A stretch of DNA of 45,497 nucleotides. Origin: Deltaproteobacteria bacterium (GTDB lineage: Bacteria; Myxococcota_A; Polyangia; Polyangiales; JADJMO01). The position numbers were made by a program, and so were the translations under genes. Location: assembly GCA_022843175.1 (NCBI GenBank), contig JALHOE010000046.1, forward strand, positions 1 through 45,497, given 5' to 3'. Shown one piece after another: positions 29,161 to 34,584 of the stretch. Numbering within the stretch: position 1 is the stretch's first letter; each line of letters begins with the position of its first letter. The notes under the pieces were generated by a model that was not told the DNA's origin, made no database searches, and saw nothing but the letters and a program-made list of their open reading frames with translations.

Positions 29161-29235
29161 GGCCCCATCGTCTAGTGGTTAGGACATCGGCCTCTCACGC
29201 CGGTAACACGGGTTCAACTCCCGTTGGGGTCACCA
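29161..29235 (+). tRNA. tRNA-Glu (anticodon CTC)
   Basis: Acceptor arm GGCCCCA pairs with TGGGGTC (one G-T pair). The anticodon loop CTCTCAC gives CTC, decoding GAG. T arm ACGGGTTCAACTCCCGT; encoded CCA. It lies 51 bp after tRNA-Gln and probably shares its transcript. Confidence 0.97.
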
Positions 29236-30799: not shown

Positions 30800-31182
30800 C
30801 GCACTCGCCCCCTGGCGGGACGGCAGGGCGCACGCCGCAGAAGTCGGCCTGCCGGCGGCATCTCGGGCGAAGCAGTCGCGCTCCGACTCGCCGTGGATGC
30901 GCGCGCCGCGGTCTCGCTCCCCCAGGTAACTGGAGAGATGAGGCGAGGCATGCGCCGCTTCGAGCAGCGACAGCGGTGCTGCGCGCTTCGCCGGCGAGGC
31001 CGCCGGCAGGCCGAACCGTTGACAATGCACTGCGCAGCCCGGCGCCGTGAGCCCGTGGGGGCACCACCAAAGCCTTCGAACCGAACGCTGCGAGAGCTTC
31101 TCGAACTATGGTCCGCGTGAACCGTGGGCGTTTTTCTTCGCTCGACGCGCAACCGAGGGTCGGCAGCGGTCGACTCCGGTGC
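30800..31182. other. Non-coding stretch holding element copy A
   Basis: Between the membrane-protein stop and the next lipoprotein start I find no credible gene. Most of it is the 165-bp inverted-repeat element described separately, followed by CGAACCGTTGACAAT, which recurs after copy C. Confidence 0.6.
30847..31011. repeat. MITE/BIME-like inverted-repeat element, copy A
   Basis: 165 bp. Left arm 30847-30873 and right arm 30985-31011 are 27-bp inverted repeats with 24 matches. The 111-bp interior shares its left half with copies B and C (CGACTCGCCGTGGATGCG and neighbours). The 15 bases after the right arm (CGAACCGTTGACAAT) are identical to those after copy C. No target-site duplication is obvious. 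Confidence 0.8.
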
Positions 31183-31521
31183 ATGCTCAAGGAACTCATT
31201 CGCGCGCTGATGGTCGCAACCGCGTGCTCGATCCTGTCCGGATGTGGAGCCGCCGATCCCGCCGAGGTGGCCGAGCGCTGCGGAAACGACGGCGCAGCGA
31301 CACCTGCCACCGAGTCGATCGAGTGCGAGGAGCTCGGGAGCAGCTCGTCGTGCCCCGCGAACTTCGGCGGGCGCTACTACGTTCGCTGCCGGCAACACTC
31401 CACGCTCTGGGCTGACTTCAAGAGCAAGCAGCCCCGCTCCGACTGCCAGCTCAGCGAGCTCGACGAGGACACCGCGAAAGGCGTCGCCGACGGGTACTAC
31501 TGCTGTCGCACGCAGCCCTGA
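31183..31521 (+). CDS. Small Cys-rich lipoprotein
   Basis: 112 residues from ATG 31183. Signal peptide with lipobox LSGC, then a mature part with nine Cys including a CC pair at the end (YYCCRTQP). Several disulfides are likely, so it probably folds in the envelope or at the surface. No family recognised. Flanked on both sides by copies of the inverted-repeat element. Confidence 0.68.
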   Translation: MLKELIRALMVATACSILSGCGAADPAEVAERCGNDGAATPATESIECEELGSSSSCPANFGGRYYVRCRQHSTLWADFKSKQPRSDCQLSELDEDTAKGVADGYYCCRTQP

Positions 31522-31918
31522 TCCGCGCCGTCGTGTCCATCACGCATCGAACCACGTCGATGCGGCGATGGTGCTCGTCGGCGATGCCCGGGAGCGCCGC
31601 CGCCCCGCTCCATTGCGCGGCAGTTCGATACGAACATGCGCCGAGGCGCGAAGGCGTTCGGAACAGGGCCCAGGTCGGCCTGCCGGCGGCCTCTCGGGCG
31701 AAGCAGGCGCGCCGCGACTCGCCGTGGATGCACGTAGCCGCCGGCTCGCGTTCCCCAATGAAGCTCGGAGCCGGGTGGGTCGCGGTCGGGAGACAGCCGC
31801 GCGCCCGCCCTTCTCGCCGCAACAGTCGGTTTCACTCTGCTCCGGCGCGACACCTGGCGATGCCGATACCGCTGCTCCAGGCAACGGAGAGCATCCGCGC
31901 GCGATAACCTCGGTAGTG
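31522..31918. other. Non-coding stretch holding element copy B
   Basis: No credible gene. It contains the B copy of the repeat. Just before it is a short sequence that still encodes EARRRSEQG-like residues matching the end of the small protein at 32602-32799, so a remnant of that gene may be present. Confidence 0.5.
31678..31840. repeat. MITE/BIME-like inverted-repeat element, copy B (right end degenerate)
   Basis: The left arm 31678-31704 is identical to that of copy C, and the first half of the interior matches A and C. The right arm cannot be recognised, so the end coordinate is set by length analogy. The 25 bases before it resemble the 3' end of the 65-residue gene before copy C. Confidence 0.65.
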
Positions 31919-32401
31919 GTGAAGCTCGTCGTCGCGATGTCCCTCGTCGTGCTCGCCGCCTCGTGCAAGCGAGAGCGGGCGGACGTGGCGATCCGGCCCG
32001 ACCCGGCGCGCGACGCCTCGATACCCGACGTCACCGAGCAGGATGCCGCGGCCCCGGACACCTCGCCGCCGCTGACCCGGGTGGACGTGGGCGCGGCGTA
32101 CAACGCGATCCTCGCACACGTTCCAACACCACCGCCTGGCATGGTGCCGCGGATCCATATGAGCCACCACGCCCCGTCCCGGTGCTGGCCGGGTGATCCT
32201 GTTTGCGTGCACGCATTCGAGTATGGCGCGGTAGCACCCGGCGCAACGGCGGCGGAGGTCGGCGCACTGCCACCGCTTGTCGGGCGGTGCGAGATCGACG
32301 CGCACACGGGCCGGATCATGTGCGCCGACTTCGGCAAGTTACTGCGGCACGTCGGCAGCGTGGGCGCCGTGGTCTGGACCTTCGACGCCGGCACCGACTG
32401 A
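31919..32401 (+). CDS. Lipoprotein of unknown function
   Basis: 160 residues from GTG 31919 (GTG 31916 adjacent). Signal peptide with lipobox LAASC. An Asp/Pro/Ala-rich linker is followed by a domain with HMSHHAPSRCWPGDPVCVHAFEYG and a further Cys pair near the end (RCEIDAHTGRIMCADFG). Two disulfides are plausible. No family recognised. Confidence 0.65.
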   Translation: MKLVVAMSLVVLAASCKRERADVAIRPDPARDASIPDVTEQDAAAPDTSPPLTRVDVGAAYNAILAHVPTPPPGMVPRIHMSHHAPSRCWPGDPVCVHAFEYGAVAPGATAAEVGALPPLVGRCEIDAHTGRIMCADFGKLLRHVGSVGAVVWTFDAGTD

Positions 32402-32425
32402 GCGCGCGCGGTGCGCTGCTCAGGC

Positions 32426-32527
32426 GTGAGATCGGTCGCCCTGGCCGTCGCGCTCATCGGAGTCGCGTGCAACGCGAGAACGCCTCGGTCACCAACGGCG
32501 ACACGGCACGCGGTGCGGAGACTCTAA
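32426..32527 (+). pseudogene. Possible truncated lipoprotein remnant
   Basis: A 33-codon frame from GTG encodes a signal-like stretch with lipobox-like GVAC (SVALAVALIGVAC) and then stops after 18 residues. It may be the decayed start of another lipoprotein, or chance. No ribosome site is visible. Confidence 0.25.
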
Positions 32528-32601
32528 GCGCGCAACCAAGATTGGTTGGCTGCCTCTCCCGGCTCTCGACCCCCGCGCGCATCCCGGCGCAGATCGTTCG
32601 C

Positions 32602-32799
32602 ATGGCCCGCAAGCGAGATCAGAAGGTCGCCCCGCCGGAGTGGGGACATGAGCGCCTCATGCGCGCCGCGGCCGCCGCGCTGCTCGACGCCGACGACGCG
32701 GCGATCAAGGCGCGCGCCGCGGAGCTGCGCTGCGACTCGCGTCGCCTGCGAGAGCTCGTGGTCGAAGCACGCGCGCGAAGGCGCTCGGAGCAGGGCTAG
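32602..32799 (+). CDS. Small basic protein, paralogue of the protein at 34256-34447
   Basis: 65 residues, rich in Arg and Ala, with no signal peptide. Conserved pattern with its paralogue: RKRD, APPxWG, ADDAxIxARAxEL, CDxxRLR. About half the residues are identical by eye. The C-terminal helix and basic charge suggest a nucleic-acid-binding or structural role, but no known domain is recognised. The coding end (RRRSEQG) abuts element copy C, and a decayed copy of the same end precedes copy B. Confidence 0.6.
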   Translation: MARKRDQKVAPPEWGHERLMRAAAAALLDADDAAIKARAAELRCDSRRLRELVVEARARRRSEQG

Positions 32800-32803
32800 A
32801 AGA

Positions 32804-32967
32804 GCCTGCCGGCGGCCTCTCGGGCGAAGCAGGCGTACCACGACTCGCTGCGTATGCGCGCAGCCGCCGTCTCGCCTCCCCGAGATCATTCGAATGCGCG
32901 AGGTCGCCCGCCGCCGCGAGCGACGACCACGCTGCTGCCCGCTTCGCCCGAGAGGCCGCCGGCAGGC
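32804..32967. repeat. MITE/BIME-like inverted-repeat element, copy C
   Basis: 164 bp with perfect 27-bp terminal inverted repeats: 32804-32830 and 32941-32967. The arm reads GCCTGCCGGCGGCCTCTCGG and then GCGAAGC. Its right end lies 44 bp before the REP-type transposase gene. CGAACCGTTGACAAT follows the right arm, as in copy A. This position and the paired ends resemble BIMEs moved by REP-associated transposases, though the perfect inverted ends also fit a MITE. Confidence 0.88.
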
Positions 32968-32974
32968 CGAACCG

Positions 32975-33002
32975 TTGACAATCATACAATCGCCATTATT
33001 CA
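32975..33002 (+). promoter_or_regulatory. Possible element-borne promoter for the transposase gene
   Basis: TTGACA at 32975-32980 is conserved in the right flank of copies A and C. A weak TATTCA follows after 16 nt at 32997-33002, just before the transposase start. Transcription would begin near or at the start codon. The -10 box matches poorly. Confidence 0.35.
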
Positions 33003-33011
33003 AGTGTGACG

Positions 33012-33617
33012 ATGCCGCGTGCCGAGCAGCAGGAGCTCGCCTTCCCCAACACCTGGGGCGGCCGCCGCGCGGGCGCGGGCAGGCCCAAGGGCTCGCGCAG
33101 GAGCGATCGCATCTCGCACGTGCGCCGTCCCTCGGTGTCGCGGCACCGCCCGCACCACATCACCGTCCGCACCACACACGGCACCTGGAACCTTCGCAGC
33201 CAGCGCTGTTACCGCCCCATCGCCGACGCGCTCGCCGAGGTCCGCGGGCGCGAGGGCTTTCGCGTGGTGCACTTTTCGGTGCAGCACAACCACGTGCACC
33301 TCATCGTCGAGGCGGACGACCGTCGGCGCATGAGCAACGGCCTGCGCGCGCTCTTCATTCGCGTCGCCCGCGGCCTCAACCGCGTCATGGGGGCGCGCGG
33401 GCCGCGTCTCGCGGACCGCTACCACGAGCACGTGCTCCGCAGCCCGAGCGAGACGCGCAACGCGCTCCTCTACGTCCTCGGCAACCGCGCGGTGCACCTC
33501 GCGCGTTGGGGCAAGCGTCCGCGCGTCGACGTCGATGGGTTCTCGTCGCTCGCCTGCAAGGAGCTCGTCCACGGGCCGGGCTCGTGGTTACTGCGCGAGG
33601 GGTGGATCCCGCCCTGA
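33012..33617 (+). CDS. REP-associated tyrosine (Y1/HUH) transposase
   Basis: 201 residues from ATG 33012 (GTG 33006 in frame). The N-terminal GGRRAGAGRPKGSRR motif is characteristic of this group. The HUH pair is in HFSVQHNHVHLIVEA. The candidate catalytic tyrosine is in RNALLYVLGNRAVHL. RAYT proteins cut single-stranded REP palindromes and are not themselves usually mobile. The gene lies directly right of element copy C, and three copies occur within 2.2 kb upstream, supporting a functional link. The reading frame is intact. Confidence 0.87.
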   Translation: MPRAEQQELAFPNTWGGRRAGAGRPKGSRRSDRISHVRRPSVSRHRPHHITVRTTHGTWNLRSQRCYRPIADALAEVRGREGFRVVHFSVQHNHVHLIVEADDRRRMSNGLRALFIRVARGLNRVMGARGPRLADRYHEHVLRSPSETRNALLYVLGNRAVHLARWGKRPRVDVDGFSSLACKELVHGPGSWLLREGWIPP

Positions 33618-34255: not shown

Positions 34256-34447
34256 TCAACTTCGGGTCGCGCGGCGGCGCGCGTCGTTCACGTACGCCCG
34301 GAGCCGCGCGGGATCGCACCCGAGCTCTCGCGCGCGCGCCTCGATCGACGCGTCGTCGGCGCCCACCAGCGAGGGCGCCTCGCTGCGCATGGCTCGATCG
34401 AGGCCCCACTGCGGCGGCGCGGCCCCGTCGTCTCGCTTGCGGCTCAT
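34256..34447 (-). CDS. Small basic protein, paralogue of the protein at 32602-32799
   Basis: 63 residues from ATG 34447: SRKRDDGAAPPQWGLDRAM, then ADDASIEARARELGCDPARL. About half its residues match the paralogue 1.5 kb away on the opposite strand. No signal peptide or known domain. The two bracket the transposase and a lipoprotein gene, with coding strands facing each other. Confidence 0.6.
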   Translation of the reverse strand: MSRKRDDGAAPPQWGLDRAMRSEAPSLVGADDASIEARARELGCDPARLRAYVNDARRRATRS

Positions 34448-34584
34448 CGACCGATCTGGAGGTCGCGCCGCGCGGGGATCGAGGGCTCCGGTTGGCACGC
34501 TGACCATCAATGTCCGCTTGTCGCGCTCCCGGGCCCGCGGGACGCTGCGGCGATGCAGCACGGGGCGGCGGGGCGGGTCGGGTA

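Follow-up and report, generated by a model that had tools for sequence, protein, structure and literature searches.

Inverted-repeat elements beside a RAYT-like Y1 HUH transposase gene in a myxobacterial genome: probable paired ends of a small, lineage-specific gene group

The stretch of DNA analysed here (the window, 45,497 nucleotides from a Deltaproteobacteria bacterium of the order Polyangiales) contains a gene for a RAYT-like HUH/Y1 transposase, which is preceded by three copies, A to C, of an inverted-repeat element (Table 1). As the initial annotation had described, copies A and C have 27-bp inverted ends, which differ at 3 of 27 positions in copy A (165 bp as a whole) and at none in copy C (164 bp as a whole; 1 mismatch in 31). 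Its two further statements on the layout are confirmed as well: copy B keeps the left arm alone, as only its left half is present (87% identity to copy A over 81 nt), and copy C ends 44 bp before the intact RAYT gene, counted to the ATG at 33012. Two related small ORFs, inverted relative to each other, flank the RAYT gene at 32602-32799 (+) and 34256-34561 (-); they have only three homologues in the genome, and three relatives belonging to the same genus or family lack them. Synteny with a congener ends right at a tRNA-Glu gene (29161-29235), with none past 29231. The RAYT gene therefore lies in DNA specific to the lineage, which may be an island linked to the tRNA gene.

Table 1. Coordinates of the element copies, shared flanking segments and transposase gene in the window.
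Feature	Position	Strand	Description
Element copy A	30844..31014	n/a	Inverted arms 30844-30873 / 30985-31014 (30 nt, 3 mismatches; 27-nt arms 30847-30873 / 30985-31011), interior 111 nt
12 nt after copy A (ACCGTTGACAAT)	31015..31026	+	Same 12 nt follow copy C, where they open the RAYT upstream region
24-nt segment a little ahead of copy B	31645..31668	+	Recurs with 2 mismatches a little ahead of copy C
Element copy B	31675..31757	n/a	Left half only; left arm 31675-31704 (27-nt core 31678-31704)
Element copy C	32801..32970	n/a	Inverted arms 32804-32830 / 32941-32967 (27/27), long hairpin
RAYT upstream region	32971..33005	+	TTGACA and leader motif GCCATTATTCAA at 32992-33003
RAYT-like HUH/Y1 transposase	33006..33617	+	203 aa from GTG 33006 (201 from ATG 33012); stop at 33617

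The window transposase carries its HUH motif as NHVH and its catalytic tyrosine (Y156) within YVLGNR; it thus combines an HUH motif with a single catalytic tyrosine in a Y1 fold, as is characteristic of RAYT/TnpA-REP (class 2 Y1) proteins. The HUH motif is conserved across 24 aligned homologues except one, which has NPIH, and Tyr156 is invariant. Matches to family models are weak for Pfam Y1_Tnp (3.7e-4, below the cut-off) and below the curated cut-off of 80 for NCBIfam REP_Tyr_transpos (38 bits, E 1.4e-9). The predicted structure has a mean pLDDT of 73.6, with most of the core above 80, and its best structural match is 4er8_A (E 1.7e-6), the E. coli RAYT (TnpA-REP) bound to a REP hairpin, followed by the TnpA proteins of ISDra2 and IS608. 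The tyrosine motif reads YVxxN[R/H] in the aligned genus group; more remote relatives show YVxxN[A/Y/W], and NP occurs in none of them. The published signatures are Y---NP for class 2 Y1 enzymes and Y----Q for class 3 (PMC6006769), and the former is absent from the window protein and its aligned relatives. A Pfam search detected no C-terminal HTH domain, a feature of subclass 2.1, and no plasmid match of the protein was found. Judged by the published tyrosine signatures, the enzyme is RAYT-like yet lies outside the subclasses described so far.

When folded as single-stranded DNA, copy C is predicted to form one long hairpin (-68.9 kcal/mol; z = -8.1 against dinucleotide shuffles), and copy A does so as well (z = -6.0 against the same type of control). 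These folds and the consensus fold of the four complete copies in the genome indicate paired inverted ends able to form a single hairpin, a defining feature of REPIN/BIME elements. Both sides have changed in some copy with pairing kept at 9 of the 47 pairs of the consensus fold, a covariation that is weak evidence, being computed on four sequences only. Arm identity between copies is 78-93%, and interior identity is 44-69%, namely 65-69% for copies within one locus and 44-48% between loci.

The genome is available as a fragmented assembly of 9.75 Mb in 470 contigs and is 95% complete. The arm pattern gives eight matches in it at up to 2 mismatches and none in the control, so that the matches are not due to chance. 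A genome-wide search with the arm and the full element, which the initial annotation had suggested, added three loci with arm-like sequence (C15, C407/C367 and C190) to the window (C46), and it yielded no complete copy outside the RAYT loci; the four complete copies in this 95% complete genome all lie at RAYT genes. Five RAYTs are present, at C46, C15, C187, C139 and C367, and three of these five loci (C46, C15 and C407/C367) carry elements, those at C187 and C139 having no recognisable one. In the window, elements occur upstream of the RAYT only; at C15, both sides of the gene are occupied, by one element that starts a few nucleotides past the RAYT stop and by a second one upstream. The end of C407 and the start of C367 carry a (CCCCTCGCAACGTCCG)n array in the same orientation with a 48-nt overlap, and the array is found nowhere else in the genome. 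On the basis of this repeat array we infer that the two belong to a single locus with a left arm, the RAYT and a right arm in succession, so that inverted arms would enclose the C367 RAYT. C190 holds a lone right half-element, and the 2.5 kb read beside it contain no RAYT. As the RAYT neighbourhoods (5 x 3.5 kb) make up ~0.18% of the genome, the probability that at least three of four element loci would lie at RAYTs by chance is ~2e-8. Even without the window locus, from which the link between element and RAYT had originally been proposed, two of the three remaining loci (C15 and C407/C367) lie at a RAYT (P ~1e-5 by simple arithmetic with the same proportion), and the link is therefore real.

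Outside this genome, arms at up to 3 mismatches are absent from all 56 relatives searched, one of which is a congener with 28 RAYT-like matches, and exact arm matches in viral contigs number zero. Nor did a search of 318 genomes of the class show the full-length element in any genome but this one. A wider distribution in the class was considered and dropped: 99 of the 318 genomes gave weak matches, but these cover short pieces, for the most part GC-rich and from the element centre, include no full-length match or arm pair, and were treated as chance. The 28 congener matches, most of which share 45-70% identity with the window protein, represent, judging from their sequences, an old IS-like amplification of the RAYT-like gene. 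No comparable pair of long flanking arms was found at 20 congener RAYT loci or at four more distant loci with an ungapped test, which also misses the imperfect C15 arms and could therefore miss imperfect arms at other loci too. Since RAYTs free of the element occur at C187, C139 and these 20 congener loci, the gene spreads without the element, which is not needed for this process. (GCGRAC)n hexanucleotide arrays are enriched near the congener RAYTs, with 13 pattern matches within 1.5 kb against 1.9 expected from the genome rate, and are also common elsewhere.

A short leader just ahead of the RAYT start codon shows stronger conservation within the genus than the 165-bp element does. The leader motif in the form GCYATTATTCAA has four genomic occurrences, all of which stand directly before a RAYT (window, C15, C139 and C187), and all 12 occurrences of TRTGCCRTATTCAA in the congener stand immediately ahead of a RAYT match or fragment. 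TTGAC is often found ~20-35 nt upstream of the motif. The leader may be a promoter sequence, an operator or an end site.

Several element copies share sequence beyond their arms, namely the 12 nt that follow copies A and C, the 24 nt that precede copies B and C, and, at C15, ~60 nt including the RAYT 3' end that precede both copies, so that the upstream C15 copy carries a remnant of the RAYT 3' end. No RAYT remnant was found between copies A and C of the window, and the assemblies compared showed neither a target-site footprint nor an empty site or excision product of the element. These common flanks fit local duplication better than precise jumping, since a 165-bp unit that transposed precisely would leave its flanks behind, whereas local duplication, one-ended events or recombination would take them along.

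Among known systems, three offer a comparison. The initial annotation had noted that RAYTs normally act on short REP palindromes and their BIME pairs; this view is incomplete, as long terminal inverted repeats (TIRs) that flank RAYT-like tyrosine transposase genes, and TIR dimers too, have been described under the name TIRYT/TIRtron (Di Nocera et al. 2013, PMC3733652). The present loci resemble TIRtrons in that a RAYT-like gene adjoins long inverted repeats unrelated to GTAG REPs, and these repeats, which occur single and as dimers, have partly self-complementary arms and form small gene-specific families. The resemblance in flanking is uneven, with repeats on both sides at C15, an enclosed gene at C407/C367 if joined, one-sided repeats in the window and none at C187 and C139. 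Unlike in TIRYTs, the tyrosine motif is YVxxN[R/H] instead of Y---NP and a C-terminal HTH was not detected. The GGGGWSAS motif found in many, although not all, TIRtrons (PMC3733652) is absent from copies A to C and has one match in the C15 stretch. REPINs and BIMEs with their RAYTs (REPtrons; PMC3116915, PMC6006769) likewise consist of two inverted palindromic ends and a spacer that form one long hairpin beside a TnpA-REP-like RAYT. The present elements differ in their arms of 27-31 nt and spacer of ~110 nt, in their four complete copies instead of tens to thousands, and in their lack of dispersal away from RAYTs. Canonical REP hairpins tagged with GT[AG]G (stems of at least 7 bp, loops of 2-5) were not found within 1 kb of the five RAYTs, two raw matches being artefacts of the N linker. 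The IS200/IS605 elements IS608 and ISDra2 share the Y1 HUH single-strand transposase fold and hairpin ends, and differ in that the ends here are inverted-repeat dimers, the protein is of RAYT type and the transposition unit is putative. TIRtron/TIRYT and REPIN/REPtron systems are therefore the closest known, and the unit is not a member of one named subclass, given the absence of GTAG REPs, of GGGGWSAS in copies A to C and of an HTH, as well as the different tyrosine motif.

We consider it probable that the 165-bp elements are the paired inverted-dimer ends of a small set of RAYT-like Y1 HUH genes specific to this lineage, together forming a TIRtron/REPtron-like unit, and that they are kept by the gene instead of dispersing independently as a MITE. 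By analogy with the RAYT family, the conserved arms are likely single-stranded recognition hairpins of the transposase, which would bind the folded arms and nick there with its tyrosine, in the manner of E. coli TnpA-REP, which processes single-stranded REPs (PMC8266576). We further infer that the transposase mobilises the element: recombination between copies, or events that are one-ended or imprecise, would duplicate the element plus bits of neighbouring DNA, yielding copies A and B and the upstream C15 copy with its RAYT 3'-end remnant. Interiors would drift while the arms stay, and extra copies would arise locally. Alternatively, the elements could be passive relics, left as hairpin pieces by segmental duplication and decay after a RAYT and its flanks had arrived by IS-like duplication, and would then not be substrates of the transposase. 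We regard this as rather unlikely, despite the flanking DNA shared beyond the arms, the RAYT remnant at C15, the greater similarity of interiors within a locus than between loci and the existence of RAYTs without elements, as the arms are far better kept than the interiors between loci, where interior identity is near noise level, and decay alone would not spare both arms of copy C over 27 nt. A bolder version, which we hold to be doubtful, is that the YVxxN[R/H] enzymes form a distinct myxobacterial Y1 HUH group with lineage-specific inverted-dimer ends and a private leader, in which the leader is possibly the enzyme's own recognition or autoregulation site and the dimers are a second substrate, spreading through one-ended events that take flanks along.

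The initial annotation had read the elements as a MITE/BIME family possibly mobilised by the RAYT. In its present form, a non-autonomous MITE/REPIN family mobilised in trans and caught at very low copy number, this explanation could draw on the conserved, inverted, hairpin-forming ends, on the C190 half-copy without a RAYT in the sequence read and on the restriction of the arms, genome-wide, to this species; nevertheless, the lack of any complete copy away from a RAYT leaves a dispersed MITE unsupported, and the flanks common to several copies and the congener with its many RAYT matches and no arms also speak against it, making this reading improbable. Slimmer still is the chance that the hairpins act mainly on transcription or RNA, those upstream by insulating or attenuating the RAYT promoter and those downstream by shielding the RAYT mRNA. 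An influence of REP hairpins on termination and mRNA stability is known (PMC6006769), copy C ends shortly before the RAYT TTGACA box, and the downstream C15 hairpin starts close behind the stop codon; such a role would, however, make three window copies and partial copies unnecessary, most RAYTs of the genus have no such hairpin, and it is the arm sequence that is conserved, not pairing alone.

Should the arms be genuine substrates, the locus would represent a low-copy case, early-stage or decaying, of a single-strand transposase gaining private inverted-dimer ends, with paralogues that have such ends and paralogues that lack them in one genome. The locus also widens the range of RAYT-like systems to a Y1 group that the published motif classes do not cover.
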